Positions 12,765 through 33,376 of a DNA stretch of 34,132 bases are shown here, in pieces. How positions within the stretch are numbered: the first letter of the stretch is position 1; every line of letters starts with the position of its first letter. Source of the stretch: an uncultured delta proteobacterium (lineage in GTDB: Bacteria > Desulfobacterota > Desulfobulbia > Desulfobulbales > Desulfocapsaceae); NCBI GenBank assembly GCA_903875445.1, contig CAIQWD010000046.1:1-34132 (forward strand). The letters are read 5' to 3'. Both the position numbers and the translations under genes were made by a program. The notes under the pieces were generated by a model. It worked only from the letters and a program-made list of their open reading frames with translations, was not told the origin of the DNA and searched no databases.

Positions 12765-12798
12765 GTAAACTTCTCTCTCCCTATCCTACTCATGATGC

Positions 12799-14121
12799 TC
12801 AAATAAAAGCCCCACCCAAATGGCCGGATGCGGCGATACAGGACGTTTTATCCGATAGGGCCGCGCACATTACGTTGGCATGGGGCACTACGGCATAACT
12901 GAACTCTCCGGAAAACCTCTGCAGTATCCAGTCGATTCCTTCTTCGATGGAGGCAATCGGAGACAAGCCCAACCCCGCGACCGTATCGCCCGGAAGGGCA
13001 CTGAGCATGGCCACATCGGCGTTGCCGACCAGGCGGCGCAGCATCAGGGAGTTATGTCCGGTGAGGTTGTAACATGCGCGTACTGCTTTATCAAGTTCTT
13101 CATCCGACTTCATTTTGGCCCACTCCAAAAAGCCGGGGTGGATGCCTCCGGCGCACTCCGCCAGCCAGAGGATCGCCCCGCCGGGGCGGACGATCTCCTG
13201 GATATTAAAGGCTGCTTTTAACGACTGCATGAAGTTGGAGTCGTAGGGGCGCCCGCCGGCGCTGGTTATTACCAGATCCACCGGCTCAGGCACCCGCACC
13301 CGAAGCATCTCCTCCGCCTTGCGGCATCCCTCTTCATGGGCCGCGACGAAATCCCCGGCAACAGCGGCAACCAGGCGGTGGTCCGTGTCGAGTATGGTGT
13401 TGAGGCAAAATTCCGGATTCACCATGCGGGTGCCTTCCAGCATGTCCAGATGCACCGGATTTGCCGTCAGGGAACACAAACCGGCCTCGGGGTGTAAGCC
13501 TTGCTCCATCCCGAGAGTCAGCCGGTGGTTCTGGGTAATTGTAGCGAATCCGGCAACGCCGGGGATGAGGGCCTTTCGCCCACCGCTGAAACCGGCAAAA
13601 TAATGGGGTACGATACGGCCGGTCAACACCCGGACATCGGCCTCCAGCACCTTGCGATTTATCCAGACCGGGGTGCCGAAGCTGGTTGTCCCCAGATGGC
13701 AAAGGGCTTCGTCGTCGCGGCAGTCATGACCGCAACAGCGAATCCGAGAGATAATCTCGCTACCGAGCAGTGCCAGCATATCGCTTTCGAAGTGCTGTTC
13801 ATGGGTGCCGTCGGCAAGGAACAGAGTGATGTCTTCATCCGCGAGACCGGCCCTGTTCAACTCCGCCACCAAGGCGGGTACGTAATCATGGGCGGCGGCG
13901 CGGCGCGCCTTGCCCGGGATCAGTATTGCCGCCGTTTTCTTTCCCCGGGCGATCTCATGCAGCGGCGGCGAACCGATAGGGTGCGCCAGGCTGTCGCTGA
14001 GCAACCGCCCGGCAGAGACTGCAGGCGGAACTGTTTTCGGTTCCAAAAAACCGGTAAACCTTCCACGGGGAAGGCTGAATGCAAGCTTTTCTTTACCGTA
14101 GGCCAGGATGAATTCTTCCAT
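12799..14121 (-). CDS. LarA-like nickel-pincer 2-hydroxyacid racemase/epimerase
   Basis: This 440-residue protein belongs to the lactate racemase (LarA) superfamily. These enzymes move a hydride at the alpha carbon of 2-hydroxyacids using a nickel-pincer nucleotide tethered to a lysine. The signature PHYFAGFSGGRKALIPG places His173 and Lys183 with the same 10-residue spacing as LarA His174/Lys184. TITQNH gives His199 (LarA His200), and ADGTHEQH gives His107. The loop that in LarA carries Asp72 and Arg75 reads IPGKARR here: the Arg is kept but Asp appears to be Gly70. Substrate specificity may therefore differ from lactate. No larB, larC or larE cofactor genes are in the window, so cofactor synthesis must be encoded elsewhere. 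It is the second gene of the operon, 13 bp after the GT2 gene. Confidence 0.9.
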   Translation of the reverse strand: MEEFILAYGKEKLAFSLPRGRFTGFLEPKTVPPAVSAGRLLSDSLAHPIGSPPLHEIARGKKTAAILIPGKARRAAAHDYVPALVAELNRAGLADEDITLFLADGTHEQHFESDMLALLGSEIISRIRCCGHDCRDDEALCHLGTTSFGTPVWINRKVLEADVRVLTGRIVPHYFAGFSGGRKALIPGVAGFATITQNHRLTLGMEQGLHPEAGLCSLTANPVHLDMLEGTRMVNPEFCLNTILDTDHRLVAAVAGDFVAAHEEGCRKAEEMLRVRVPEPVDLVITSAGGRPYDSNFMQSLKAAFNIQEIVRPGGAILWLAECAGGIHPGFLEWAKMKSDEELDKAVRACYNLTGHNSLMLRRLVGNADVAMLSALPGDTVAGLGLSPIASIEEGIDWILQRFSGEFSYAVVPHANVMCAALSDKTSCIAASGHLGGAFI

Positions 14122-17725: not shown

Positions 17726-18823
17726 ATGAACGAATGGATGGAGAACCTCAGGAACCTTTTTGGGATTCATCGGGGACACAAGTCTGTACCAGAAAACAAC
17801 ACACCGGCAAAATCCGTCCTCTCGACCAACGAATCATGTGCCTGCCTCGACTCAATTCACGACTCGCCGGCGTCTTTCGCCAAAGAGAGTGATTACACCG
17901 GAGAACGGCATATTCGTGGATTAAGCGGGCAGGCGTGCGGCGACCTCATTCATATGCTGCGGTATGCCTATGCCGCACCGCTGGTTCGAGGCCGCACCGT
18001 TCTTGATATCGCATGCGGCAGCGGATACGGCAGCCAGTTCCTCGCGGCACAGGGTGCGGTGAGCGTCGTTGGTGTGGACAATGCCACCGAGGCGATCGAA
18101 TACGCCCGCACTCATCACGCTTCACCCACCATTCGCTATGTCGAGGGTGACGCCCATGCCCTCCCGACCATGGCCGATGCCACCTTCGACATGATCGTCT
18201 CGTTCGAGACCTTCGAGCACCTGGAGTCACCAATGGATTTTCTGGTGGAACTGCGGCGTCTCTTGAAGCCCGGCGGCACGCTTCTGCTTTCATGTCCCAA
18301 CGACCGCGCCATACCGATCTGGCAGAGCAAGTTTCACAGGAGGCCCTTCCGCTTCGATGAATTCCGCGACATGGTGCTGCGGGTTTTTGAACAGGCGCGA
18401 TTCCTTGGGCAACACCATCTCCTGGGAAGTTGCCTGACAGAGGAAACAAAGGACCCGGAACCGACTCATCCAGACGAAGATTTCCGGCGCCCGTTGACGG
18501 TCGGCCACTTTGCACGAGAGTATGCGACAGCGCTGCCGGCGTTGGATGACGCCGATGGATACCTGGCGATAATCGGGGCGAACGAAACCGAACTCGGCCG
18601 CGTTATCGGCTATTCGCATAGGGCGTTTCGCGAATTGCTGGGCGGTTTTTCGTTTCTTCAATCGGAAGCCGCGCGGGAGAAGGGGTTGGCCGACGAGGAA
18701 CGAAAGAAAAGGCTTGCCCTGCAGGCTGAATTGTCGAGACTTCGCACCGACCTGGCGGAAGAACGTGCGACCATGCTCTCGCGTCTTAACAGGGTGATCG
18801 CCAAGGTGCTCGGACGAAGATGA
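17726..18823 (+). CDS. SAM-dependent methyltransferase with C-terminal coiled coil
   Basis: From ATG 17726 this is 365 residues. A variable N-terminus of about 55 residues precedes SDYTGERHIRG, then TVLDIACGSGYGSQFLAAQG (motif I), VVGVDNATEAIEYAR (motif II acidic residue), EGDAHALP, FDMIVSFETFEHLESP and LKPGGTLLLSCPN, the complete Methyltransf_11/25 pattern. The last 50 residues (EAAREKGLADEERKKRLALQ onward) are strongly coiled-coil, as in methyltransferases that act on glycan termini with an exporter. It overlaps the permease gene by ATGA. A GTG at 17717 could add three residues; neither start has a strong ribosome site. The 73-bp gap before it holds nothing recognisable. Confidence 0.88.
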   Translation: MNEWMENLRNLFGIHRGHKSVPENNTPAKSVLSTNESCACLDSIHDSPASFAKESDYTGERHIRGLSGQACGDLIHMLRYAYAAPLVRGRTVLDIACGSGYGSQFLAAQGAVSVVGVDNATEAIEYARTHHASPTIRYVEGDAHALPTMADATFDMIVSFETFEHLESPMDFLVELRRLLKPGGTLLLSCPNDRAIPIWQSKFHRRPFRFDEFRDMVLRVFEQARFLGQHHLLGSCLTEETKDPEPTHPDEDFRRPLTVGHFAREYATALPALDDADGYLAIIGANETELGRVIGYSHRAFRELLGGFSFLQSEAAREKGLADEERKKRLALQAELSRLRTDLAEERATMLSRLNRVIAKVLGRR

Positions 18824-19665
18824 AGATCGACAGCAAGCCAACCCTATTGCGACAAGAACTCAATCCGGCACGGATGATAACGTCCTTGTGGAAACACAGG
18901 GATCTCGCGCGGCAATTGGCGTTGCGCGATCTGGCATGCCGCTGCCGTTCAAGCGTTGGCGGCATCCTCTGGGCCGTCGGCGGTCCGCTGATTCTTCTGG
19001 CTGTGTATACCTTGGTGTTTAATGAATTTCTTGGCGTGAAGTGGTCGCGCGATGTCGGCGGAGGTGTCGTCGGGTTTGCGGTAACGGCCTTCTGCGGAAT
19101 GGTCATCTTTTTCTTTGTCGCCGATTGCGTCCAACGCGCCCCGCTTCTGATGAGTGCCTATGCCGGAATGGCCAGGAAGTCGACCATCCCCTTGGAAATC
19201 ATCCCGCTGGCGACGGTGCTTGGGGCGGTGCCCAGCCTTGCAGCGGGCGTCGGAATCGTCGTGGCCGCGACGGCCGTCATGACCGGGTCCGTGCCGGCGA
19301 CGGCATGGCTTGCGCTGGTGGTTCTGTTGCCTTTACTGGCCGGTCTCCTCGGCGCCTGCTGGTTTCTGGCGGGCCTGGGTGTGTACTTCAGGAGCTGTAA
19401 TCACCTGCTGGTACCGGCCTTCAATCTGTTGTTCTTCGCCACGCCCATCCTCTACGATGCATCCCAGGTTCCGCCCAAATGGCGCTTCCTGGTGGATGCC
19501 AATCCGCTTGCTATGACGGTCGAGAATATGCGGCGGGTTCTGCTTTGGGGCATGCAGCCGGATTGGTTCGCATGGGGCGTCTGGACACTGGTCGGCGTGC
19601 TTTCCCTTATGCTGGGGTATGCGGCGTTTCTCGGGATGCGCAGGGGGTTTGCCGATGTCCTGTGA
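18820..19665 (+). CDS. wzm: Polysaccharide ABC exporter permease (Wzm-like)
   Basis: This 281-residue inner-membrane protein is the transmembrane half of an ABC-2 exporter for O-antigen or capsule-type glycans. An N-terminal amphipathic stretch, RDLARQLALRDLACRCRSSV, leads into GGILWAVGGPLILLAVYTLVF, the usual Wzm first helix. Further helices lie at about 85-105, 125-150, 158-185, 190-215 and 250-272. PNPLAMTVENMRR-like NPLAMTVENMRRVLL near residue 230 is typical. It is translationally coupled upstream (ATGA) and overlaps the ATPase start by 11 bp. Together they should move a finished lipid-linked glycan across the inner membrane. Confidence 0.93.
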   Translation: MKIDSKPTLLRQELNPARMITSLWKHRDLARQLALRDLACRCRSSVGGILWAVGGPLILLAVYTLVFNEFLGVKWSRDVGGGVVGFAVTAFCGMVIFFFVADCVQRAPLLMSAYAGMARKSTIPLEIIPLATVLGAVPSLAAGVGIVVAATAVMTGSVPATAWLALVVLLPLLAGLLGACWFLAGLGVYFRSCNHLLVPAFNLLFFATPILYDASQVPPKWRFLVDANPLAMTVENMRRVLLWGMQPDWFAWGVWTLVGVLSLMLGYAAFLGMRRGFADVL

Positions 19666-21154
19666 AACCGCTGAGACTCCTAGGACTGATTTACCGTCCG
19701 GCGCTATGCGAGACAGGTCGGTCCTCGCGGAAGTGAAGGATGTGGGCCGGACCTACCGCATCTGGCGCACGTCGGCATCGTGTCTCAAGGGGCATCTGCT
19801 GGCACGCGCCGCGGCGATGTGGCCGGCGAGCGGCATTGCAAGACACCTGGTCCGGGGCTCCCAGGCCTGCTTCACGGCGGTCCCGGCCTTGAAGGGCGTG
19901 TCGTTTGATTTGCACCGGGGCGAGGTCCTGGGCGTTCTGGGACAAAATGGTTCGGGGAAAAGTACACTTTTGCAGATACTCGCCGGAGCACTCCCGCCAA
20001 CCGAGGGGGAAATCGAGATGCACGGCAAAGTCAGTGCCCTGCTGGAGCTGGGTATGGGCTTCCATCCCGATTTCACCGGCCGCGAAAACGTCTTCATGAG
20101 CGCGGCCGTGATGGGGATGTCCCGGAAGGAGGTTGCGTCGCGATTCGGTTGTGTTGCCGAGTTCGCAGATATCGGTTCCTTCATGGATCGTCCGATCCGC
20201 ACCTATTCCTCCGGGATGACGGTGCGTCTGGCCTTTGCCGTCCAGGTTCTCTTTGAACCAGACATCCTGCTCGTGGATGAGGCCCTGGCTGTCGGCGACA
20301 TTTTCTTTCAGCAAAAATGCTACCGGCATCTTCAAGAGCAACTGAAGCGCGGGGTGGGGGTGATACTGGTGACCCACGATATCGATGCCGTTCTTCGATT
20401 GTGCCGTCGGGCTATCCTTCTGGAGGCAGGCAACGTGGTCATGCTGGGTCCCGCGGAACAGGTCGCCCGGTGCTATTTAATGCAGCAGAATCAAGCACAG
20501 ACGGCGGAACGGAGTCGCGGTGCAACTGGATCTGAGGTGAAATCCCCGTCTCTTTCCGCCTTTGACGTGCCGCCCTTGACATGGCCTGCCGCCCCGGGAA
20601 GCGTTGTCGCCGATGCTCAGCAGGAATCGAACGGTTGGGCACGGTGCACGCGGGTGCTTCTCTGCAATACCGACGATCAACAACAAGGCTTTTTCGAGCA
20701 GGGTAGTACGGCTCGGTTCTATTATGAAATCGAAGTCTTACGCGACATAAATATACCGAGCGCCGGAATCGCCATCAATGACCGGACGGGGATGTTGGTA
20801 CATGCCAAACACCTGCTCCAATATCGCGTGGAGCGGCCGACCTCCGTGATCGCGGGGACGAGGCTCTGTTACAAGCAGGATATGGTTCTACGCCTCAGTC
20901 CCGGCGAATACACCTATCACGTTGGCGTGATCACCCTGCCGCCGACGCTGCAGGAAGGGATACAGATCCCGGAGTCCGATCTTTTCCAGCAGCAGATACG
21001 ACTTGTGGAGACCCACAACCTAGGTCGCTTCCAGGTTACCGGCAGAACGAATTACAGCGGCGTGCAGTCGATGCATTGGGGCATAGCCGATCTGGACGGG
21101 GAAATACAATGGGGCGCTCTGGTTGAATCACCGGAAGAAGGTCACAGACAGTGA
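19655..21154 (+). CDS. wzt: Polysaccharide ABC exporter ATPase with glycan-binding tail (Wzt-like)
   Basis: From ATG 19655 (AGGGGG 7 nt upstream) this is 499 residues. The nucleotide-binding domain has Walker A GQNGSGKST (96-104), signature YSSGM (184-188), Walker B ILLVDEAL (204-211) and H-loop His241. GMGFHPDFTGREN is typical of Wzt/TagH exporters. After a linker at about 265-310 comes a beta-rich C-terminal domain (about 320-499, with INDRTGMLVHAKH and LRLSPGEYTYHVGVI). This matches the Wzt carbohydrate-binding domain that recognises a chemically capped chain end. The tail therefore implies chain-end modification, consistent with the methyltransferases around it. The next gene's original start is coupled to its stop as GTGA. 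Confidence 0.94.
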   Translation: MSCETAETPRTDLPSGAMRDRSVLAEVKDVGRTYRIWRTSASCLKGHLLARAAAMWPASGIARHLVRGSQACFTAVPALKGVSFDLHRGEVLGVLGQNGSGKSTLLQILAGALPPTEGEIEMHGKVSALLELGMGFHPDFTGRENVFMSAAVMGMSRKEVASRFGCVAEFADIGSFMDRPIRTYSSGMTVRLAFAVQVLFEPDILLVDEALAVGDIFFQQKCYRHLQEQLKRGVGVILVTHDIDAVLRLCRRAILLEAGNVVMLGPAEQVARCYLMQQNQAQTAERSRGATGSEVKSPSLSAFDVPPLTWPAAPGSVVADAQQESNGWARCTRVLLCNTDDQQQGFFEQGSTARFYYEIEVLRDINIPSAGIAINDRTGMLVHAKHLLQYRVERPTSVIAGTRLCYKQDMVLRLSPGEYTYHVGVITLPPTLQEGIQIPESDLFQQQIRLVETHNLGRFQVTGRTNYSGVQSMHWGIADLDGEIQWGALVESPEEGHRQ

Positions 21155-21937: not shown

Positions 21938-24103
21938 ATGAGTAAAGCAACAATCCTGGTTGTCGAACCCGATGGCGACATCGAGACCTTGCAACTGGGT
22001 GACATCATCGACGCCCCGGCGCTGCAAACCATGATGGAGGATTTCCACCGGCTGACCGGGTTCGGCATAGGTATCCTTGATACCGAGGGCAAAATCCTGG
22101 TGGGTGTCGGCTGGCAGGAGATCTGCACAGAGTTTCATCGCCGTCATCCCGACACCCTGCAAAACTGCCTTGTAAACGATGTCACGCTGAATAGCGATAT
22201 ACCCATCGGCACCGTCAAGGCCTATCGCTGCAAGAATAACCTGTGGGACCTCATGACCCCCATAGAGATAGGCGGACACCACGTAGGCAATGTCTGTCTC
22301 GGGCAGTTTTTTTATGACGACGAGACCGTTGATTATGATTTTTTCCGTAGCCAGGCCAAAAAATATGGCTTTGACGAGGCCGCCTATCTTGCGGCCCTTG
22401 ACCGGGTGCCCCGCTGGAGCCGTGACAAGGTCGCAGCAGCCATGGCTTTTTACACCGGTCTATCACGACTTATTTCAACCCTCAGCTATAACACCGTCAA
22501 GCTGTCCCGGACACTTATCGAAAAAGATACCGCCCTGCAACAACTGGAAGAAAACAAATCCTTCCAGACATCGCTTTTGGAAAACATCCCGATTCCGGTA
22601 TTTTCCAAGGACACCGCCGGACGGTATCTGGTATGCAATAGCGCCTACAAGAATTTTTACGGCAAAACCACCGAACAGATCCTCGGCGCCGACACCTTCG
22701 CCCTGCACCCTCCGGAACTGGCGCAATTCTACCACAACAAGGACGACGAACTTTTCCGAACAGGCCGGCCGCAAGTCTATGAAACCAAATTTCTCAATTT
22801 CCGCGGCGAACTCTGCGACGGCATTGCCCATACGGCTCTCCTGACCGACACCGACGGCATTACCACCGGACTGGTCGGGGCAATCCTCGACATCAGCGAA
22901 CGTAACAGGGCCGCAGAAGACAAGAAAAAACTCCAGTTCCAGCTCATGCAGGCCCAGAAGATGGAGGCCATCGGCACCCTGGCCGGGGGCATCGCCCACG
23001 ATTTCAATAACATCCTCGGGGCCATCCTCGGATATGCAGAGATGGTCCGGGAAGACAGCCCGGTCGGCTCGACAACCGCCCGGGACCTTGATCAAATCCT
23101 CCAGGCCGGCAACAGGGCGAAAGATCTGGTCAAGCAGATTCTCACCTTCAGCCGGCAGGCGATTGCCGAGAGAATCCCCCTGCAGCCGGCAAGTATTATC
23201 AAGGAAACCATCAAACTCCTCCGCGCCTCCCTGCCGACGACGATCACCATCCTGCCGGCAATAGACCCGGCGACCGCCCCTATTCTCGCCGATCCGATCC
23301 AGATCCACCAGCTCACCATGAACCTCTGCACCAATGCCTTCCACGCCATGGAGGAGCGCGGCGGCACGCTGTCCATTTCGCTTACCAACGTCGATACGCC
23401 AAGGCAGGAACAGCTCGGGAGATTCGGAGGGCCGGCGGAAAAATTTATCCGCCTGTCAATTAAGGATACCGGGACCGGCATTCCCCCGGAGATTCGTGAA
23501 AAAATTTTCGATCCCTACTTCACCACTAAGGAAATCGGCAAAGGCACCGGCATGGGCCTGGCCATCGTTCATGGCATAGTATCGAGTTATGGCGGAACAC
23601 TCACCTATGACAGCCAACCGGACCAGGGCACGACCTTCCATATTACCCTGCCGGCCTTGACCGAATTGGAAAAACTGGCCGCCGACACCGCTGCCGACCA
23701 AGAGACAAAAATTCCCCGAGGCGGCGAACATATTCTTTTTATCGACGACGAGGAGATCCTCGTCGACATGACCCGAACCATGCTGGAAAGGCTCGGCTAC
23801 CATGTGACCGTGCGGAACAGCAGCCTTGAGGCCCTTACCGTTTTTCAAAACCAGCCGGATGCCTACGATCTGGTCATCACCGATCAAACCATGCCGGGCA
23901 TGACCGGCATCGATCTCGCTCGGCGAATGCTGCAAATCAGGCCGAACCTGCCGATTATTCTCTGCACCGGCTATAGCAGCCTCATCACCGAGGACAAGAC
24001 CAAGGCGGCGGGAATAAAGGGCTTTGCCTTAAAACCCCTGGCAAAAAAAAATATCGCCGGACTTATCAGGAAGGTACTGGGCAAACCTGACAGCGTTAAA
24101 TAA
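21938..24103 (+). CDS. Soluble hybrid histidine kinase: PocR-PAS-HisKA-HATPase-REC
   Basis: This 721-residue protein is cytoplasmic with no membrane helix. The PocR sensory domain (about 20-185) has LTGFGIGILDTEGKILVGVG and conserved cysteines at 63, 77, 98 and 120 (DVTLNSD, AYRCKNNLWD, GNVCLGQFF). PAS is at about 207-322 (PIPVFSKDTAGRYLVCNSAY). The H-box GGIAHDFNNIL has phospho-His354. The ATPase has N-box Asn463/Asn467 region, DTGTGI and GTGMGLA. The C-terminal receiver has IDDEE and phospho-Asp649. PocR domains sense small molecules in propanediol-utilisation and related regulators; the ligand here is unknown. The HisKA type (AHDFNN) is the one that usually pairs with NtrC-class regulators, and one is encoded three genes downstream. 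The ribosome site is AGGGGTGAGAG. Confidence 0.93.
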   Translation: MSKATILVVEPDGDIETLQLGDIIDAPALQTMMEDFHRLTGFGIGILDTEGKILVGVGWQEICTEFHRRHPDTLQNCLVNDVTLNSDIPIGTVKAYRCKNNLWDLMTPIEIGGHHVGNVCLGQFFYDDETVDYDFFRSQAKKYGFDEAAYLAALDRVPRWSRDKVAAAMAFYTGLSRLISTLSYNTVKLSRTLIEKDTALQQLEENKSFQTSLLENIPIPVFSKDTAGRYLVCNSAYKNFYGKTTEQILGADTFALHPPELAQFYHNKDDELFRTGRPQVYETKFLNFRGELCDGIAHTALLTDTDGITTGLVGAILDISERNRAAEDKKKLQFQLMQAQKMEAIGTLAGGIAHDFNNILGAILGYAEMVREDSPVGSTTARDLDQILQAGNRAKDLVKQILTFSRQAIAERIPLQPASIIKETIKLLRASLPTTITILPAIDPATAPILADPIQIHQLTMNLCTNAFHAMEERGGTLSISLTNVDTPRQEQLGRFGGPAEKFIRLSIKDTGTGIPPEIREKIFDPYFTTKEIGKGTGMGLAIVHGIVSSYGGTLTYDSQPDQGTTFHITLPALTELEKLAADTAADQETKIPRGGEHILFIDDEEILVDMTRTMLERLGYHVTVRNSSLEALTVFQNQPDAYDLVITDQTMPGMTGIDLARRMLQIRPNLPIILCTGYSSLITEDKTKAAGIKGFALKPLAKKNIAGLIRKVLGKPDSVK

Positions 24104-24241
24104 TCGCCGATCAGACGCAATCATCTCTGTCGCTTGTTACTTTCGGCACTATTCTCCTTGAGAAAAATCTCCTGAAGGGCTATGAATTATCTGTTGTATC
24201 AATTTGGATGCCATCGACAACATACTCGCTCGGGGACGGTA

Positions 24242-24607
24242 ATGAAAAACATCCTGGTCATTGAAGACAATGAGAACATGCTTTCTATGATGAACGATCT
24301 TCTCAGTCGATCCGAGTACCATGTTATCTCGGCGACTGATGGCGTTGCCGGACTGAAGGCCTATCGCACCGCCAAACCCGATCTGGTCATTACCGACATC
24401 ATCATGCCGAACAAGGAAGGTCTGGAGGTGATCATGGATCTGGTAAAAGAGACCCCCCGGTTAAAAATCATCGCCATGTCCGGCGGCGGGATAATGGAAC
24501 CACGCACCTATCTTTCGCTTGCCGAGAAACTCGGGGCCGACGAAATTATCGAAAAACCGTTTCGTCCGGCAGATCTTCTGGCCCTTGTTGCCAAACTCCT
24601 CGCCTGA
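24242..24607 (+). CDS. Stand-alone receiver-domain response regulator
   Basis: From ATG 24242 this is 121 residues, a CheY-like receiver with no output domain. VIEDNENM gives the acidic pocket, LVITDIIMPNKEG carries phospho-Asp52, IIAMSGGG the Ser/Thr switch and IIEKPFRPADL the conserved Lys. GGGGACGG lies just upstream, and the in-frame extension to 24182 is not receiver-like. It sits between two hybrid kinases and may shuttle phosphate between them or act on a partner by binding. It starts 138 bp after the PocR kinase and ends 19 bp before the next gene, so co-transcription with the downstream genes is likely. Confidence 0.92.
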   Translation: MKNILVIEDNENMLSMMNDLLSRSEYHVISATDGVAGLKAYRTAKPDLVITDIIMPNKEGLEVIMDLVKETPRLKIIAMSGGGIMEPRTYLSLAEKLGADEIIEKPFRPADLLALVAKLLA

Positions 24608-24626
24608 CTCTTCCAGAGAAGCTTCT

Positions 24627-25778
24627 ATGCCCAGATCCGGGTTAAAGCTGTCGGAAGATAAACTCGAACACCTCCTGCTGCAGTTTAAATACCAGGCTGC
24701 CGTGCGGCGGGTGGCGCGAGGGGTTGCCCACAGCTATAACAACATCTTTACCGGCCTGAGCGGGCAAACGGCGATACTCCGGCAGGAATCGCATCTCCCG
24801 TGCGACGCCGGCAACAGACGCAGCGGCTTGATCGGCGAGCTGCTGCAGCGGGGCATCGACCAGACCGCCATTCTCTACGGTTTTGCCCGTGACGGCGACG
24901 AGGACAGCTGCAGCCAGTCACCTTTCCTCCTGGCAAATAAGGCGGTCGAGCTGTTAAACAGCATCTCCCGCGTACATCGCTTTGTCTTGCATTCGGACAT
25001 CAGTCAGGAAAAAATCCTCTGTAATGTCCGCGACATGGTTTTGATTCTCTTTTATCTCGGAGAAAATTGTGTCGATGCCACCCCGGAAGGCGGCGAGATT
25101 GTCTTTACCATCTACCGTACAAAAGCTCCCGATCCGGGACTGGCTTTTTCTTTCAGGGACCATGGCCCGGGCTTTACCGCAGAGCAGGCCGCCGCCCTAG
25201 GCACTCCTTTTCTATCGTCGAGAAGCGACTCGCCGCACCGGGGACTTGGCCTGTATGCGGCACGGATCCTCGCCGAACGTTACCAGGGGCAGCTGACCTT
25301 TACCCGTGACCATGAGCAAACGACCCTGGTCAGCGCTGTTTTCCCCCTGGCAGCCGACGAAAAAAAGGCCCACCACCCAGACCTCGCAGACGCCCCGCCA
25401 AGGCTGAACGGTAATGCCCCGGCAAAACAGTGTTTTCTCGTCGTCGAAGATGATGAAGCCATGCGCACCCTGCTGCTCAACCGATTGCAGCAACGCGGCC
25501 ATATGGTGTTTTGCGTCGACACCTGCGCCGAGGCATTGGAAGAATACGACCATCTGCACGACATCATCACCACAGTGCTCATGGACGTCGGCCTGCGCGA
25601 CACCAGCGGCTATGAATGCCACCGCAAATTATTGGCCGTCAATCCGCAGGCACGGATCATTTTCATGTCCGGGGAAGACGACACGGCCTCCGGGGAAAGA
25701 GCCGGAAAATCTGTTTTTCTGCCAAAACCGTTCACCATGAATCAATTGGAAATAGCGGTGCACGATGTCCACCTATAA
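24627..25778 (+). CDS. Sensorless histidine kinase-receiver protein
   Basis: This is 383 residues from ATG 24627. There is no sensor domain: the protein begins almost directly at an unusual H-box, RRVARGVAHSYNNIFTGLSG, with His35. A compact ATPase domain has N-box ENCVDATPEGG, G1 RDHGPGF and G2 HRGLGLYAA. A receiver (about 263-383) has VVEDDE, VLMDVGLRD and FLPKPF. It belongs to the same AHxxNN kinase class as the other kinases here. With no sensor it probably takes its signal from a partner such as the PocR kinase or the single receiver. Its end overlaps the sigma-54 activator gene by 14 bp, strongly suggesting translational coupling and a cognate relationship. Confidence 0.9.
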   Translation: MPRSGLKLSEDKLEHLLLQFKYQAAVRRVARGVAHSYNNIFTGLSGQTAILRQESHLPCDAGNRRSGLIGELLQRGIDQTAILYGFARDGDEDSCSQSPFLLANKAVELLNSISRVHRFVLHSDISQEKILCNVRDMVLILFYLGENCVDATPEGGEIVFTIYRTKAPDPGLAFSFRDHGPGFTAEQAAALGTPFLSSRSDSPHRGLGLYAARILAERYQGQLTFTRDHEQTTLVSAVFPLAADEKKAHHPDLADAPPRLNGNAPAKQCFLVVEDDEAMRTLLLNRLQQRGHMVFCVDTCAEALEEYDHLHDIITTVLMDVGLRDTSGYECHRKLLAVNPQARIIFMSGEDDTASGERAGKSVFLPKPFTMNQLEIAVHDVHL

Positions 25779-27165
25779 AGCCCGAGCGGTAAAAAATGCC
25801 CAGGTTCTCATTGTCGATGACGAACCGAGCATCGTCGATTTCATCGCCACCACCCTGAGCGCCAACGGCTATGCGATCGAAGCCCATTCCGATCCTCTGG
25901 AAGCCCTGAAAAACACCAAACGCAAGGTGTTCGATCTGGCGATAGTTGACATCAATATGCCGGAGATGAACGGCATCGAATTCTCAAGAAAACTGCTGGA
26001 AACCTCAATCAGTACCGAAGTGGTAATCATCACCGGCCTGCCCGATGAAGAAAATCTCGACCCTTGCCTGCGCATGGGGCTGACTCATTTTCTCTTTAAA
26101 CCGTTCAATGAGTCGCAGCTGGTCTATACCGTCTACGCCGCCCTCCATTTCAAGCGCCTGCGCAATGCCTTTGTCGCCTCCACCTCCTCGGAGAGAAAAG
26201 GCAGCGGCTATATCGGCGTCTCTATGTCCACCCGCGATATCCGCGACGAGATCGCTTCCCTTGCCGGTCTCGACATCCCGGTGCTGGTCCTCGGCAAATC
26301 GGGAACCGGCAAGGAAATCATCGCCAGGGATATTCATCGCAACAGCAGCCGCAGCCGGAGTGTCTTCATGCCGGTCAACTGCGCCGTTCTCGGGACGCTC
26401 GCCGAGACCGAACTGTTCGGCCATGTCAGCGGCGCCTTTACCGGCGCGGTTAAAAGCACCAAGGGCTACATCGGCACGGCCGACGGTGGCACGCTGTTTT
26501 TTGATGAAGTCGGGGAGTTGCCGCTGGAGGTGCAGGCCAAACTGCTGCGTTTTCTCGACGAAGGTGAGTACTCAAGGGTCGGTGAGGCGAAAATCCACAA
26601 GGTCGATGTCCGGATTGTCGCGGCAACCAACAGAAACCTTGAAGAAATGTGCCGGTCCGGGCGTTTTCGCGAGGATCTCTATTACCGCTTGTCGGCCTCT
26701 ATCATCGAGACCACCCCGCTCGACGAGAGAAAGGGAGATATCCTGCCGCTCATTTGGCATTTTCTCGATCTCTTCGGTACCGCCAAGAATATCACCTACG
26801 AGATCTCCGCCGACGCCGTGTCGCAGCTCATTGAAAGGGATTGGCCCGGCAATGTCCGCCAGCTGAAACAGACCCTGTATAAAATCTCCCAGATGGCGAC
26901 CAGCCGAAAAATCTCCCTGGCCGATGTTCGCCGGGTGGTGGGCGACAGCAAACCGGAGGCGGTTGTCAGCTATAAAGATGCCAAGGAACAGGCTCTTGAG
27001 GAATTTGACCGGGAGTACCTGATGAAGACCCTCTCCCTGTCCCAGGGCAGCCTCCAGCATGCCCTGAAACTCTCCGGCATGCATAAGAAGAATTTCTACG
27101 CCAAGATCAAGGAACTCGGTCTGGCGATGAAGGATTTTGCCAATCTTCAGAATCGCAAGACATAA
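25765..27165 (+). CDS. NtrC-family sigma-54-dependent response regulator
   Basis: This is a 466-residue enhancer-binding activator. The receiver (about 12-125) has VDDEPS, phospho-Asp62 in VDINMPEM and Lys112 in LFKPF. The AAA+ domain (about 148-385) has Walker A GKSGTGKE (177-184), the sigma-54 contact loop GAFTGA (223-228), Walker B LFFDE and the arginine-finger region RFREDLYYRL. The C-terminus has a Fis-type helix-turn-helix (about 420-457, LSQGSLQHALKLSGMHKKNF). All functional motifs are intact. The gene overlaps its likely kinase by 14 bp. Three copies of a dyad and two -24/-12 promoters lie just downstream, so the likely targets are the pseudo-receiver and chemoreceptor genes next to it. 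Confidence 0.95.
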   Translation: MSTYKARAVKNAQVLIVDDEPSIVDFIATTLSANGYAIEAHSDPLEALKNTKRKVFDLAIVDINMPEMNGIEFSRKLLETSISTEVVIITGLPDEENLDPCLRMGLTHFLFKPFNESQLVYTVYAALHFKRLRNAFVASTSSERKGSGYIGVSMSTRDIRDEIASLAGLDIPVLVLGKSGTGKEIIARDIHRNSSRSRSVFMPVNCAVLGTLAETELFGHVSGAFTGAVKSTKGYIGTADGGTLFFDEVGELPLEVQAKLLRFLDEGEYSRVGEAKIHKVDVRIVAATNRNLEEMCRSGRFREDLYYRLSASIIETTPLDERKGDILPLIWHFLDLFGTAKNITYEISADAVSQLIERDWPGNVRQLKQTLYKISQMATSRKISLADVRRVVGDSKPEAVVSYKDAKEQALEEFDREYLMKTLSLSQGSLQHALKLSGMHKKNFYAKIKELGLAMKDFANLQNRKT

Positions 27166-27183: not shown

Positions 27184-27201
27184 GGAGGCAAATCTGCCTC
27201 C
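27184..27201. promoter_or_regulatory. Dyad 1: candidate enhancer site for the sigma-54 activator
   Basis: GGAGGCAAATCTGCCTCC, with 8-bp perfect arms if one base is added each side (27183-27202). Its centre is 139 bp upstream of the -12 GC of the promoter at 27317. It lies 18 bp after the activator stop, so a terminator role is possible, but there is no T-run and two more copies occur at non-terminal positions. Confidence 0.65.
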
Positions 27202-27316
27202 TTCCCCACCTTCTCTGCCGCCCCATGCTGCCGCATGTACCTGATCGCCACGGAAATTCTCAATAATTATTTTCAATATCGGAATCTTACGCCATTGACC
27301 TGTTTTATCTTATTTC

Positions 27317-27333
27317 TTGGTGTGAAAGTTGCA
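27317..27333 (+). promoter_or_regulatory. Sigma-54 (-24/-12) promoter for the pseudo-receiver gene
   Basis: TTGGTGTGAAAGTTGCA has GG (27319-27320) and GC (27331-27332) exactly 10 bp apart, with the consensus TTGCA at -12. Transcription would start near 27343, about 48 nt before the ATG at 27391. Confidence 0.72.
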
Positions 27334-27390
27334 AAACCCCCCTCAACCGGCGGCTAAAGTACGCTCCCCACCTCTTTGTTCAGGATGATA

Positions 27391-27777
27391 ATGGCGAATG
27401 TTTTACTGATTTACGATGACCGAAAGGCCAAGCTGTCCGTCGAGCAGGTTCTGTCAAGCCTGGACATTTCCCCCGTCCACCTGGTTCTTGAGGAGTTCGC
27501 TGCAGAATTCCTTCTGGCGGAGATGTTCGACTTGATTATCTTCGAGTTGTTTGGCGAAAATCGCTCATGTATCGCCATCCTACAACAACTTGAGAAACTG
27601 GCGACAACCTCCGGCATCGACCATCCGCCGGTCATTGTCGTAACCGAGCAGGACTTCGGGATTATTGAACAGTCCCTTCGCACCGCCAAAGTCAACTTCT
27701 TTTTAGTCAAACCCCTTGCCGAAACGGAGCTTATAGCCGCGATACGGCAATCCCTCAAACACCCGACAGCTGTCTGA
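27391..27777 (+). CDS. Pseudo-receiver: small receiver-like protein with Glu at the phospho-site
   Basis: From ATG 27391 (AGGAT upstream) this is 128 residues and folds as a CheY-like receiver by pattern. VLLIYDDRK gives the acidic pair Asp9/Asp10, VIVVTEQ supplies the switch Thr85 and FFLVKPLAE the Lys107. The phosphorylated position, normally Asp in a DLIIxDLxMP context, is Glu52 (FDLIIFELFGEN). Such a protein cannot be phosphorylated in the usual way and may mimic the active state. Starts at 27376 (TTG) or 27385 are possible but less well spaced. It has its own sigma-54 promoter, is flanked by enhancer-like dyads and precedes a chemoreceptor gene, so it may act as an adaptor or constitutive CheY-like output. 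Confidence 0.85.
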   Translation: MANVLLIYDDRKAKLSVEQVLSSLDISPVHLVLEEFAAEFLLAEMFDLIIFELFGENRSCIAILQQLEKLATTSGIDHPPVIVVTEQDFGIIEQSLRTAKVNFFLVKPLAETELIAAIRQSLKHPTAV

Positions 27778-27847
27778 GACCCCTTCCCGTGGGGGGCAAG
27801 CGCCATTCCTGTCCGGTCGGCACAGTCGGCAGCAGGCCAAAAAAAAT

Positions 27848-27865
27848 GGTGGTAAATTTGCCCCC
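27848..27865. promoter_or_regulatory. Dyad 2: candidate enhancer site
   Basis: GGTGGTAAATTTGCCCCC is the weakest of the three copies. It is centred 128 bp upstream of dyad 3 and 267 bp from the -12 GC of the chemoreceptor promoter. Confidence 0.55.
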
Positions 27866-27975
27866 GACAACAATAGTGCCCTCAATCAACGAATATCTAT
27901 CCGAACTACAAAGAGAATCTCACACATAACCGCTTGTCGCAACAAGCCATTCATGGCGGTCTCCGCTAAAAACCG

Positions 27976-27993
27976 GGAGGTAAATTTGCCTCC
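27976..27993. promoter_or_regulatory. Dyad 3: candidate enhancer site
   Basis: GGAGGTAAATTTGCCTCC differs from dyad 1 only at two positions and is a palindrome apart from one mismatched pair. Its centre is 139 bp from the -12 GC of the chemoreceptor promoter, the same spacing as dyad 1 to its promoter. Confidence 0.65.
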
Positions 27994-28109
27994 TCTCTTT
28001 CCTGGTGGCCAGGGTAGTGCCGCAGCCGATTTTTCCCGACTCCTCTACACCCCAGCATTTTCAATCCCCATGCGGTCGGGAGGAGACTCCAAGACATAGT
28101 TAGTGATAA

Positions 28110-28125
28110 TGGCATAATTATTGCT
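28110..28125 (+). promoter_or_regulatory. Sigma-54 (-24/-12) promoter for the chemoreceptor gene
   Basis: TGGCATAATTATTGCT has GG (28111-28112) and GC (28123-28124) 10 bp apart, with TGGCA and TTGCT matching the consensus halves closely. The start would be near 28135, giving a leader of about 70 nt to the ATG at 28208. Confidence 0.78.
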
Positions 28126-28207
28126 TTATGTGACTGCAATAGCTACAAGGCTTGGCGTGACACCAGATGAAGATAAAAATCACGACACAACTGCAAGGAG
28201 AAAACCA

Positions 28208-29872
28208 ATGCTCAAAAACATGAAAATCGGAACCCGACTGATTCTGGCTTTTGGCCTGATTCTCTTGTTCCTGTTGATCAACAGCGGAACGTCATTCAGA
28301 ATAATCGGACAGTTGAGTGACGATCTCAGCACCCTGGCTGAAGATCGCATGCCGAAGGTTGAACTGGCTAATGACATCATCGATAACATTAATATCATTG
28401 CCCGGGCTCTCCGCAATATCGTCATCGACACCAGCAAAGAGACCCTGCAGGCTGAACTGTTGCGCGTCGAAAAGGCTCGTGCGACCATCGGTAAGGACGT
28501 AGAAACCCTGCAGAAAACCACTAAAAGCAAGGAGGGCATGGCCAAGGTTCAAGTCCTTTCTGAGGCCCGGGTCGCCTATATCGAGGTCACTAAGCAATAT
28601 ATGGAGCTGGTAAAGGCAGGCGATCTCGACAAGGCTAAGGGTATGCTGCTCACCACCCTTCGGGCGATACAGAGCAAGTATTTTACCGCCTGTGAAGAGT
28701 TGATCGCTTACCAGGGGCAACAGGCAAAGGACGCAGCCAAAGAGGCAAGCGCCAGTGCCTCGCGCGCAGAAACCCTGATCATTATCTTGTTGATCGTGGC
28801 AATGGCGGTGAGTGTGGCCGCGGCAATCCTCATCATCCGCTCCATCACCGGTCCGGTGGCTCAGACGGTGCACTTGGCCGAAACCATGGCTAAAGGCGAT
28901 TTAACGACGACACTTGACATCGACCAAAAAGATGAAATCGGCGTTATGGCCAAGGCGATGAACGGCACCTTAGGGCAATTGCGCTCGATGATCGGCGAGA
29001 TCATCACCGGCATCAATACCCTCTCCACCTCGTCTACGGATCTGGCCGCCGTTTCCCGGCAGCTCTCCTCCTCGGCCCATGAAACGGCCAATAAATCAGG
29101 GACGGTAGCCACCGCCGCCGAGGAAATGAGTGCCAACATCCATTCGGTTTCCGCCGCCATGGAACAAAGTTCCAGCAACGTCGGCTTGGTCGCCACCGCC
29201 ACCGAAGAGATGACCGCCACGGTCAATGAGATCAGCCATAGTGCCGAAAAGGCAAGAGAGGTGTCGGAAAAAGCTGTTAAACAGAGCCAAGCCACCTCCG
29301 AGAAAATCACCGCCCTTGGCGAGTCGGCACGGAAGGTCGGCAAAGTAACGGAAACGATCACCGAGATCTCCGAGCAGACCAATCTCCTCGCTCTCAACGC
29401 CACCATCGAGGCGGCCAGGGCCGGCGAGGCGGGCAAGGGTTTTGCCGTAGTCGCCAACGAGATCAAGGAACTGGCTCGCCAGACGGCGGCGGCAACGGTT
29501 GATATTAAAAACCAGATCAGCGACATGCAAAGCAACACCAGCTCGACCATAGGTGATATTGAAAGTATCACAGCGGTCATAGTCGAAATCAACAGCGTCA
29601 TAAATGGTATTGCCACCGCTGTGGTCGAGCAGTCGGCCGCCACCAATGAGATTGCCGGTAATATCTCGCAGGCCTCGCAGGGTATTGTCGAGGTCAATGA
29701 AAATGTCGCCCAAAGCACCGTGGTCATAGCCGAAATTACCAAAAATATTGCCGAGATCAACCAGGAAGCCACCCAGGTGGGGGCAAGCAGCAGCCAGGTG
29801 CAGGCAAGCGCCCAGGGCCTGTCCGACCTGGCCGCCCAGCTGCAGGAGTTGATGAAAAAGTTCAAGGTGTGA
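28208..29872 (+). CDS. Methyl-accepting chemotaxis protein
   Basis: This is 554 residues from ATG 28208, chosen because AAGGAG lies 8 nt upstream; the longer frame to 28121 has no membrane-protein character. TM1 is at about 8-27 ([18 protein letters not shown]). A four-helix-bundle type periplasmic ligand domain spans about 30-185 and TM2 about 190-214. A HAMP domain ([20 protein letters not shown]) follows, then a long coiled signalling domain. Its hairpin tip, [20 protein letters not shown] at about 388-407, is the invariant kinase/CheW contact. No CheR-docking pentapeptide is present; the protein ends LMKKFKV. It is apparently transcribed from its own sigma-54 promoter. The periplasmic ligand is unknown. 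Confidence 0.95.
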
Positions 29873-29935: not shown

Positions 29936-32900
29936 ATGCCCGAAACAAAGATTAAAATGGCGCCCTTTGCCAACATGCTGCTTCTGTTGCTGGCCCTGCT
30001 CTGCCTCGATCTGTTTGTCGGTTTCCGGTTTTTTAAGGCGCACCAACAACAACAGGAGCGTCTCGTCGAGAACCAGTTGACGGCGATCGGCAACCTGAAG
30101 GTGAGGGAGATAACCGATTGGCGGCAAAGGATGCTGGACGAGGCAGCTTTGCTGACGGAAAGCCCGTTTTTCGCCAGGGGCGTGGAACTGTACCTGCAGG
30201 ACTCGCAAGTCGAAAACGCCCAGGCCCTCCTCAATCGTATCCGCAGCATCACCACCCATTATCATTACCCGGGGGTGTCGGTGATCAATCTCCAGGGAAA
30301 GGCGGTGGTGAGCTGCGGGCCCTTTGCCGGGCTAAGCAAAAAGAGCGGCCTCGAACATCTTGTTGCCCGCGCCATAGAGGAGCGGCTGACGGTGTTAAGC
30401 GATCTGTATACCGATGAGCGGGTGGACGGGATTTTCCTGGCGGTTGTCACCCCCCTTTTTCGACATGGGCAAGCCGGCGAGGAACTGCTCGGGGCTGTCA
30501 TCCTTGTTTGCGATCCCGAAAGGTTCCTCTTCCCTTTGATCCGCAACTGGCCGATCCCCAGCGAAACCGCAGAATCCTTGCTTAGCCGAGCCGATGGCGA
30601 TGATATTCTTTATCTCAGCGAACTGCGGCACCGGCCAGGCAGTGCTATGCAACTGCGCATTCCGAAAAATAACCTTGAAGTGCCGTCCGCCGCTGCCGTT
30701 AGTGGCAAGGCAGGAATAGTCAGGGGGATAGACTACCGGGGTGCAAAGGTCATATCCCATGTCCAGGCGGTTCCCGGTTCTCCCTGGTTTCTGCAAAGCA
30801 AGATCGATGAAGGCGAGGCCTTTGCACTCTGGCGCAACCAATCGCTCCTGCTGATTCTCGCGTTCTCCGTTATCGCTGCCCTCCTTCTCGCCTTGGGCTT
30901 GGCGGTTCTCCAACGCAACAAGAAAAAACACTATCTCCAACTGTTCACTGCGGAACACCAGCTTCGACAAACCGCTGAAAGGAGCGGTGTCATTCTGCGA
31001 AGCATCGCCGACGGTATTATTGTTACCGATTCCTTCGGTCGCATTGAACTCCTCAACCAGGCTGCCGAAGAGCTGACCGGTCGGAACAATGATGATGCAT
31101 TAGGCAAATCACTCGAAGAGGTCTTCACCCTCCTCGATGAAACAAGCGGGAAAGAGGTGGAAAATCCTACCATCACGGTTCGACGCGATGGCAAAAACGT
31201 AGTGCTCGACAGTTACCCTCTTCTTGTCAGAAAAGATGACCGCAAGGTACCTATTTCCGTAAGCGGAGCACCTCTGCACGATGGCCGGGACAATATCAGC
31301 GGTGTTGTCCTGGTCCTTCGTGATCAACGCAAAACGCATTTTATGGAACGTCTGGCGGAGGCTCGCCTGCGCATTACCCTCTATGCCAATACCCATTCCC
31401 TCGATCATCTCCTGACCAAGGTTCTTGATGAAATTTGTGAACTGGTCGACAGTTCGGTCGGCTTTTTTCATTTTGTCGCATCCGACCAAGAGACCGTGAC
31501 CCTGCAACATTGGTCAACGGGAACTGGAGAGTTTTGCCGGGCGGAGGACAAAGGCTGCCATCACAATATTACCGAGGCGGGGATCTGGTTCGACTGTCTG
31601 CGACAGCGGAAACCGGTGGTGCATAACGACTATACCTCCCTGTCCCATAAAAAAGGCTTGCCGGCGGGACATGTGCCGATCATTCGCCAACTGGTGGTCC
31701 CGGTCCTCTACAACGACCGGGTGACGGCAATCCTCGGAGTCGGCAACAAACCGGCGGATTATGACGGGAACGATATAGCAACCGTCTCCTATCTAGCCGA
31801 AGTGGTGTATCACCTCATTGAGGCCAAACGGGTTGAAGAAGTGCTGCGCAAGTCTCTGCAGACCTCCGACGATCTAGTCCGGGCCATTCCTTCCGGATTA
31901 TTCATTTATCAGCATTTTCCGCCGGAAGGCCTGGTACTCCTCCACGGCAATCCCGAGGCTGCGCGACACACCGGGAAAAATATCGAGGAACTCATCGGCC
32001 TGGACTTTGATACAATCTGGCCCGAGGCAAGGGCCGAGGGCATTACCGACCAGTTCCTCAAGGTAATGCAGACAGGCAAGATGTTTGAAACGGAAAACCA
32101 ACGGTATGCCGACAACCTCCTGGTCGGGGCCTTCCGTATCCGTGCCTTTACCCTGCCGGGAACCCGACTGGCCGTGGTCTTTGAAAACATTACCGCGCTG
32201 AAACAGTCCGAGGCCGAAAAAGAAAAAATCCAGTCGCAGTTGCAACAGGCACAGAAAATGGAGTCGATCGGCCAACTGGCGGGTGGCGTAGCCCATGATT
32301 TCAATAATATGCTGAGCGTCATCATCGGTAATGCCGAGTTGGCCCTCGAACAGACCAAGAAAGAACCGACACTGCACCGCGAACTTACGGAGATCAAAAA
32401 AGCCGCCCAGCGCTCGGCCGATCTTACCCGGCAACTGCTGGCCTTTGCCCGCAAACAGACGGTCGCTCCGAAAATCATCAACCTCAACCACACCATTGAG
32501 GGCATGCTGCGGATGCTGCGCCGCCTCATCGGTGAGGATATTCAAATGGCCTGGCTGCCGCAGACCGGACTTGCCTCGATCTTCATCGACCCGTCGCAGG
32601 TCGATCAAATTCTTGCCAACCTCTGTGTGAATGCCCGGGATGCCATCCAAGGGGTGGGAAAAATCATCATCGAGACGGGCACGGTCACGCTCACCGAAGA
32701 ATACTGCCGAAATAACCTCGGATTTATGCCGGGGGAATATACCATGCTCTCCTTCAGCGACAACGGCTCCGGCATCCCCAAAGAACACCTGAAACATATC
32801 TTTGAACCGTTTTTCACCACCAAAAAACAGGGTGAGGGAACCGGTCTCGGCCTGGCGATGATCTATGGCATCGTCAAACAAAATAGCGGCTTTATCAAGG

Positions 32901-33376
32901 TCTACAGCGAACCGGGTCAAGGCACCACCTTCCGCATCTACCTGCCGCAATACACCGGAGAAACGGAAGAGGTCCAACGCTCCGAAGATCTTGTCATTCC
33001 ACTGGGACAAGGGGAGTTGATCTTACTGGTAGAAGATGAAACGGCAATTCTCGAACTGAACGTTCGCTTGCTGGAAGGCCTCGGCTACCGGGTGCAGGCG
33101 ACTAGTTCGGCGACCGAGGCCGTTATCCTGGCCCAGGAACATAAAGACCAGCTGCGGCTTCTTTTGACCGACATGGTCATGCCGGAAATGAACGGTCGGG
33201 ATCTGGCGAACGTCATATGGCAAACCAATCCGGGATTGAAATGTCTGTTCGTGTCCGGTTATACTGCCAACGTCATTGCCCGCCAGGGCTTTTTGCCGGA
33301 AGGCATCAACTTTCTCCAGAAACCCTTCATGAAAAAAGAACTGGGGCTGAAACTCCACCAGATTCTTGCCGAGTAA
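29936..33376 (+). CDS. Multi-sensor membrane hybrid histidine kinase (Cache-PAS-GAF-PAS-HisKA-HATPase-REC)
   Basis: This is a 1146-residue inner-membrane kinase. TM1 is at about 12-31. The large periplasmic region (about 35-300, with [20 protein letters not shown]-like features and [20 protein letters not shown]) resembles a double Cache domain. TM2 is at about 303-325. PAS1 is at about 345-465 ([20 protein letters not shown]), a GAF/GAF_2-like domain at about 480-635 ([31 protein letters not shown]) and a second PAS at about 645-760. The H-box [11 protein letters not shown] has phospho-His at about 787. The ATPase has NARDAI, DNGSGI and GTGLGLAM, and a C-terminal receiver has VEDE, phospho-Asp at about 1079 and LQKPF. 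All catalytic motifs are intact. ATG 29936 has a weak ribosome site; it follows the chemoreceptor gene by 63 bp. The ligand is unknown. Confidence 0.93.

Follow-up and report, generated by a model that had tools for sequence, protein, structure and literature searches.

How do two sigma-54-type promoters come to have copies of the same short dyad at the same distance upstream, beside a gene for an NtrC-type activator? This question is raised by the window analyzed here, a whole 34,132-nucleotide stretch of DNA that represents contig C46 of the 4.89-Mb, 117-contig assembly of an uncultured member of the Desulfocapsaceae (own genome, G000; G, C and L denote genomes, contigs and examined loci, as in G000:C38 or L046). 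Having read the motif, promoters, spacing, domain content, co-occurrence, recognition helix and single rpoN match from the sequences, we consider it highly probable that the dyads are upstream activating sites (UASs) of the activator encoded at 25765–27165, which would control a chemosensory sigma-54 regulon.

The motif GGWGGYAAATYTGCCYCC had been reported in an earlier note on this DNA at 27184, 27848 and 27976, and a rescan found exact matches at all three places (27184–27201, 27848–27865 and 27976–27993). With up to 3 mismatches allowed, the window contained 6 strand-wise matches, which were these same three places on both strands, whereas 100 shuffled windows averaged 0.41 matches and reached 3 at most. 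Two sigma-54-type −24/−12 sites were located on the plus strand where the note had placed them, one before a pseudo-receiver gene (TGGTGTGAAAGTTGCAA, 27318–27334, with GG at 27319 and GC at 27331) and the other before a chemoreceptor (MCP) gene (TGGCATAATTATTGCTT, 28110–28126, with GG at 28111 and GC at 28123). Both have GG-N10-GC in a TGGCAC/TTGCW context, as expected of sigma-54 promoters. Weights of the site score were set by hand on a sigma-54 consensus, and a scan of the window with the sigma-54 consensus alone (up to 2 mismatches) was at chance level, with 18 sites against 18.2 expected and thus no excess; the weight of these promoters therefore derives from the dyads and from conservation. 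At both promoters the distance from the nearest dyad centre to the G of the −12 GC was 138.5 bp, which reproduced the identical spacing noted earlier. Dyad 1 (GGAGGCAAATCTGCCTCC, 27184–27201) is the proposed UAS of the pseudo-receiver promoter. For the MCP promoter, the proposed proximal UAS is dyad 3 (GGAGGTAAATTTGCCTCC, 27976–27993). Dyad 2 (GGTGGTAAATTTGCCCCC, 27848–27865), a distal site of this promoter, lies 128 bp upstream of dyad 3, with its centre 266.5 bp from the MCP promoter. None of the three dyads is assigned a strand.

All genes next to the dyads are on the plus strand. A PocR-PAS hybrid histidine kinase-receiver (21938–24103), which is a candidate upstream sensor, and a single-domain receiver (24182–24607), both recognized by domain search, precede a HATPase-receiver protein (24519–25778; in-frame ATG at 24627) that adjoins the 5′ side of the activator gene (25765–27165) and is a candidate cognate kinase; its homologues adjoin the activator in relatives too. 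Downstream are the pseudo-receiver (27376–27777; in-frame ATG at 27391), a weak Response_reg match of 24.6 bits (below the 30.2 cut-off), the chemoreceptor (28208–29872), in which domain search found 4HB_MCP_1, HAMP and MCPsignal, and, 3′ of it, a PAS/GAF hybrid histidine kinase (29936–33376; domain search). By eye, the pseudo-receiver keeps the N-terminal DD and has Glu at the position of the phospho-acceptor Asp; possibly it is a locked or scaffold receiver controlled by the same regulator. Elsewhere in the window, the minus-strand ORF at 1159–2517 presumably resembles an IS-type transposase, and positions 8031–14121 and 18820–21154 appear by eye to hold a small adenylation-domain/phosphopantetheinyl-transferase gene cluster, beyond which glycosyltransferase and polysaccharide ABC-exporter genes were seen, also by eye.

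The earlier assignment of the regulator as an NtrC-type activator with a Fis-type HTH agreed with domain searches, an alignment of 16 homologues and a structural model. Its receiver domain (Pfam Response_reg, 2.8e-25) has D18, D19, D62, T90 and K112 all present, and its AAA+ domain (Sigma54_activat, 1e-60) carries GAFTGA; residues G180–E184 (Walker A) and G223, F225, T226 and G227 (GAFTGA loop) were invariant in the 16 homologues. The C-terminal Fis-type HTH, with HKKNFYAKI at residues 440–448, scored 19.9 against Pfam HTH_8, below the cut-off of 22. An AlphaFold model of this part (residues 400–466, 67 residues; pLDDT 85.7) matched the DNA-binding domains of Fis, NtrC4 and NtrC1 with TM values of 0.56–0.70, including 0.70 for Fis (1fip; Foldseek E 0.34, not significant) and 0.61 for NtrC4 (3e7l; Foldseek E 0.96, not significant). 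On this likeness of the model, and despite the sub-cut-off Pfam score, the C-terminus is classed as a predicted Fis-type HTH. The recognition helix, H440–Y445 plus K447 (HKKNFYxK), was invariant in 16 of 16 homologues with identity down to 41%, and the HKKNFY signature was found in 9 of 80 genome-contig loci, solely L038–L046, with several of the other loci unaligned over the C-terminus. The expected pair would be a recognition helix and a dyad that are both conserved. One RpoN match (PF04552, 1.3e-62) was present in the own genome.

Genome-wide, the motif (up to 3 mismatches) occurred 37 times on the forward and 38 times on the reverse strand, compared with 6 and 12 for a backwards control. 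Strong intergenic dyads clustered in the window (three), on C57 (3653, 3797 and 4037; 12440 and 12584), on C95 (22792 and 22915), at C47:166 and at C38:34668. The gapped dyad-promoter pattern was found in five places (control, 0), with spacings of 138.5, 138.5, 138.5, 139.5 and 140.5 bp, before the pseudo-receiver, the MCP, a second MCP on C95 (475 positions identical over 563 columns), a che operon on C57 and a CheR operon. Thus, the regulon is not local as had been claimed, since the second MCP and the che and CheR operons are on other contigs. The che operon encodes an MCPsignal/MCP-like protein, hemerythrin, STAS, a CheY-like single receiver, CheA, receiver-HD and receiver-kinase proteins; the CheR operon contains CheR, an MBL-fold hydrolase and then an MCP-like ORF with repeats (poly-HAMP by eye). 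This distribution of sites suggests that in Desulfocapsaceae a che operon and receptors may be placed under one two-component enhancer system. When the five loops were compared in 10 pairs, similarity did not exceed that of shuffled controls (z from −3.0 to 2.2), and the simulated chance of five spacings falling within 2 bp was 2e-6 for a uniform range of 80–200 bp and 2e-4 inside the searched 31-bp gap. The claim that identical spacing exceeded chance was therefore strengthened by three more promoters at 138.5–140.5 bp and by five mutually dissimilar loops. Matches at C57:534, 807 and 1080 are coding, inside 273-bp tandem repeats (L022:342–1118) of the MCP-like ORF 3′ of CheR, where dyad-like strings are a coding coincidence, and were not counted as sites.

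The own genome also has another copy of this cluster, partly decayed and split between two contig ends (G000:C47:1–1601 and C95:20550–23692; L024 and L025). It holds an activator (411/466 identical), an MCP, a pseudo-receiver and a hybrid kinase fragment, and at its pseudo-receiver promoter on C95 the expected dyad place had no dyad. Because the C47 and C95 ends share an inverted stretch (by eye), an insertion or assembly break may part the dyad from its promoter.

Among 93 family genomes, 13 had a homologue of the activator at E ≤ 1e-110; among 395 sampled phylum genomes, two had one at E ≤ 1e-130, namely the own genome and G398. Dyads (up to 2 mismatches) had a median number of 6 in the 13 activator genomes versus 1 in the 80 others (p = 2e-6, unchanged when the 3 coding-repeat hits were subtracted from the own count). 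Dyad number thus tracks the presence of the activator, in agreement with the proposal that the dyads are enhancer sites of the activator encoded upstream. Named carriers were Desulfocapsaceae, Desulfobulbaceae or Desulfopila plus one ‘Deltaproteobacteria’ MAG (L038–L045), and Ca. Anammoxibacter (L046; Planctomycetota), whose activator was 42% identical. In four loci (L163, L188, L044 and L196), MCP-like or cheA genes were located ∼1–13 kb from the activator, a neighbourhood that supports a chemosensory regulon; in L044 and L196 the MCP-like protein was merely 24% identical. Conservation also held at the level of individual targets, with dyads kept before orthologous genes in relatives.

Spacing was analyzed in 38 fetched loci (622,038 bases, 376 sigma-54-like sites), which had been chosen for dyads or activators and not for spacing. 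Their 126 motif sites (up to 1 core mismatch) gave 46 pairs 100–145 bp upstream and 3 downstream, whereas six scrambled motifs (21–58 sites each) gave 1, 1, 1, 0, 1 and 12 upstream pairs, the 12 coming from a permutation that hardly differs from the motif. Strong dyads thus preceded sigma-54-type sites far more often than scrambled motifs did. The 46 pairs comprised 27 at 137.5–140.5, 6 at 116.5, 4 at 129.5, 2 at 127.5 and 1 at 105.5 bp, with 6 elsewhere, and 22 of the 40 pairs outside the own genome were at 137.5–140.5 bp. A fixed spacing of ∼139 bp, as claimed earlier, therefore stood for the own-genome promoters and these 22 pairs, but relatives also had shorter ones, and the remaining spacings are mostly whole ∼11-bp turns closer. 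For example, orthologous che promoters in seven genomes had spacings of 140.5 (G000, G006 and G031), 139.5 (G443), 129.5 (G003), 127.5 (G012) and 105.5 bp (G009). The gene behind the sites at G443 L188:2808 and G009 L161:7424 was an MCP.

The 46 pairs were curated by hand, with 5 removed and 3 added; 41 served for pairwise and position statistics and 44 for the phase test. Those dropped were two G006 L158 pairs that share the weak site CGGCAAACCGGTGGCAA (113.5 and 138.5), G000 L022 at 118.5 (promoter facing the opposite way), G443 L187 at 126.5 (GC-rich dyad centre plus a core mismatch) and G012 L170 at 141.5 (one core mismatch and a site ending in GCGG, although an MCP gene does follow). Those added were G003 L160:382 and G032 L174:2781, with site scores of 23.0 against a threshold of 23.5, and G398 L212:8160, which was fetched later. 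Single-linkage clustering of the 44 loops into 22 clusters is too permissive, with different spacings combined in the clusters of 6 and 10 members; each cluster was represented by its median. Twelve medians were at 137.5–140.5 bp and the other 10 tended to be in phase with a best period of 10.85 bp (scan from 10 to 11.6), a fit matched by 76 of 20,000 simulations; best periods overall were 10.85–11.5 bp. For Lac repressor loops in vivo, PMC1762422 gives fitted helical repeats of 11.60, 11.08 and 10.95 bp, which lie in the same range. Off phase were G442 (125.5) and G032, which had 133.5 at one promoter yet 140.5 at another. With regard to dyad-dyad distance, 24 of 37 pairs under 200 bp were 119–146 bp apart. 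In the 38 loci these distances seem clustered at 121–128, 132–138 and 141–146 bp, suggesting that the distal dyad may be positioned too.

How might such sites work? We infer binding, phosphorylation by neighbouring kinases, looping and sigma-54-dependent activation. A neighbouring kinase would phosphorylate the regulator (25765–27165), which would then oligomerise while a Fis-type HTH dimer holds it to the proximal dyad; the DNA between dyad and promoter would loop out, and the activator would remodel RNAP-sigma54 at the −24/−12 site. Looping would be best with dyad and promoter on the same helix face, which would account for centre to −12 distances near 139 bp or whole ∼11-bp turns less. The second dyad, often ∼120–146 bp further out, probably adds occupancy, and the targets would be MCPs, the pseudo-receiver, the che operon and the CheR operon. 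Beyond this, a rigid genome-wide ruler, with the dyad ∼139 bp (∼12.6 turns of 11 bp) from −12, shortened by whole turns and kept from Thermodesulfobacteriota to Planctomycetota while targets change, is put forward tentatively; we find it plausible but lean slightly against it.

Outside the family, Ca. Anammoxibacter (G499) had three dyad-promoter units at 138.5 bp, two of which precede PilZ-domain genes. The third was seen before an apparent decayed PilZ paralogue. The loops of these three promoters are duplicates (z 3.8–9.4), so that they count as one independent case. This genome had 4 strict dyads (control, 0), one of them intragenic. Its activator (L046:9989–11350) was seen by eye to have no Asp at column D62, and may therefore act without phosphorylation; ∼83 bp upstream of the activator gene is a palindrome, GGCGGTATATGTACCGCC (L046:9889–9906), possibly an autoregulatory dyad variant. 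In the 7.6 Mb of G500, a relative of G499, the dyad matched exactly at a single place, which lies ∼33 bp 5′ of the activator ORF and has no promoter at the usual distance. G398, from a different family of the own phylum, has an activator that is 48% identical and a receiver-MCP operon that is preceded by two dyads and, with a spacing of 118.5 bp, a sigma-54-type site; the dyads were inside the longest ORF, and the receiver domain starts near an in-frame ATG downstream of them (L212:8356). In G472 (activator 55% identical), the dyads that precede MCP and kinase genes had spacings of 186.5, 240.5 and 264.5 bp. Compared with the backwards control, the relaxed dyad was not enriched in G398 (13 vs 18), G472 (9 vs 10) or G500 (1 vs 3), and exact relaxed dyads at G472 C1:1931025, 4019362 and 5507444 and on G398 C47 and C155 were intra-ORF and set aside.

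The spacing could instead be set by an IHF-type bend or by intrinsically phased A/T tracts rather than by the bare helical face, an explanation that we consider unlikely yet worth keeping in mind. IHF-like sites (up to 1 mismatch) occurred in 9 of 36 curated loops against 4.3 ± 1.8 in mononucleotide shuffles, but the other 27 had no such site, which makes a weak case for IHF as a general architect. A/T content anchored on the dyad was periodic both in a first test on the same 36 partly related loops and in a second on 22 loop representatives, where it oscillated at 10.5–11 bp (p 0.001–0.009). However, the upstream-flank control also oscillated at 10.5 bp (p 0.011), and A/T content anchored on the promoter had no clear 10.5–11 peak (p 0.08–0.15); phased A/T tracts were not adopted.

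Dyads that fit poorly bear on a second explanation, namely that a different co-inherited regulator, either a repressor or a second activator, binds them. The 38 loci contained 76 exact dyads. Of these, 36 had a site scoring ≥23.5 at 95–150 bp, 14 were second dyads at 60–200 bp from a promoter-paired dyad, and 26 had neither a promoter in range nor a paired dyad nearby, although two of the 26 (the hand-added G003 L160:382 and G032 L174:2781) had their lower-scoring sites at 139.5 and 140.5 bp. Putative UASs lie upstream of −24/−12 promoters, as is characteristic of a bEBP, with these promoter-less exceptions, and those refuting conditions of the note that could be checked on sequence spoke, on balance, for its interpretation. 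G012 had three dyads around a pseudo-receiver without a good promoter, as had G003 with two beside a pseudo-receiver (L159:8142 and 8265), and no close MCP orthologue was seen in G003. Also, G019, G032 and G442 (63% complete) had the activator and 1 dyad each, and G027 had 5 dyads (both counts with up to 2 mismatches) and no orthologue at E 1e-110. In the own genome, a good dyad at C38:34668–34685 (L023:8669), followed after ∼85 bp by the gene for a dCache-PAS-GAF hybrid kinase, had no recognizable sigma-54 site at the expected distance; for G031 proteins with the same dCache kinase layout, dyad and promoter were both present, with a spacing of 116.5 bp. The 26 promoter-less dyads slightly lower our confidence in the dyads as UASs of the activator. 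Nevertheless, co-occurrence over 93 genomes links the dyad to the activator, the recognition helix is invariant in two phyla sharing the dyad, the sole G500 dyad adjoins the activator gene and the phased upstream position is that expected of a bEBP, all of which make a different regulator improbable.

Equal spacing might also have been inherited through duplication of a cassette, in which case the constraint would be historical and not functional. Duplication is accepted for the three anammox promoters and is true of some orthologous or paralogous loops, and under looser single-linkage clustering the window MCP loop and the che loop share one six-member cluster. But the pairwise dissimilarity of the five own-genome loops does not support it there, and 22 loop clusters retain the same spacing classes, leaving this account with very little probability. 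A reading of the dyads as rho-independent terminators, or as RNA hairpins of another kind that mark gene ends, is similarly remote. In its favour, a hairpin can form from the sequence, dyad 1 starts 18 bases past the activator stop codon and a terminator scan flags 27975–27994. Against it, positions 3/16 are non-complementary in 15 of 41 sites without covariation (a T/A pair in 2), each half-site stays GGWGG/CCWCC in the 41 sites, 27184 is absent from the terminator list and the sites recur at set distances 5′ of promoters with dissimilar loops.

From sequence alone, reading the dyads as UASs thus provides an unstudied sigma-54 activator with a probable site of binding, a probable set of targets and a probable function, and the dyad-promoter geometry makes predictions testable at 1-bp resolution. 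The evolutionary spacer series of 105, 116–118, 127–130 and 138–140 bp is independent support for helical phasing of sigma-54 enhancer loops. If the ruler is true, nature has provided in this regulon a series of spacer lengths from which the looping helical repeat can be read in uncultured bacteria, and promoter geometry could be used to find targets of an uncharacterised bEBP.

Searches of open-access papers found neither this regulon nor its dyad, the core GGTAAATTTACC was found there solely in an unrelated plant review, and no open-access paper was found that combines Desulfocapsaceae, sigma-54 and chemotaxis. With regard to known systems, the NtrC-like regulator CrdA of Myxococcus xanthus is reportedly linked to a chemosensory system, Che3. 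Our activator would likewise be of NtrC type and tied to a chemosensory system, the link here being putative transcriptional control of che genes. Its receiver-AAA+(GAFTGA)-HTH layout is that of NtrC1, NtrC4, NtrX and ZraR (PDB 1ny5, 4l4u, 3dzd, 5m7n and 1ojl), and the match to 4l4u aligned over activator residues 12–453. In contrast, the HKKNFYxK helix and dyad were not seen in those systems, which were compared at the protein level, and their targets are unrelated. The Desulfovibrio vulgaris sigma-54 regulome (PMC4641369) is similar in that bEBP regulons of a sulfate reducer, with their UASs, were reconstructed by comparative genomics. There, the closest site is no more than 100 nt away for the largest fraction of promoters and beyond 300 bp for four; unlike here, no fixed spacing is described in its relevant passages, and GGTAAA-initial words are absent from its main text, motif figures apart. 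A parallel in geometry is LuxO/qrr of Vibrio, for which PMC4740811 gives 61 enhancers with loops of ∼80–120 bp displaced by ∼11 bp, so that the principle of turn-quantised sigma-54 loops is already known. Both systems have an NtrC-type activator, sigma-54 promoters and loop lengths clustered at whole-turn steps of ∼11 bp (here with off-phase exceptions in G442, G032 and G472). LuxO/qrr differs, according to the same passages, in its tandem LuxO sites, its loops of ∼80–120 bp and its sRNA gene targets. Here, no tandem of adjacent activator sites was found among the 37 dyad pairs, the closest true pairs being 76–80 bp apart; instead, one proximal dyad, often with a second ∼120–146 bp further out, is combined with main-class loops of 115–118 bp and with chemosensory targets.
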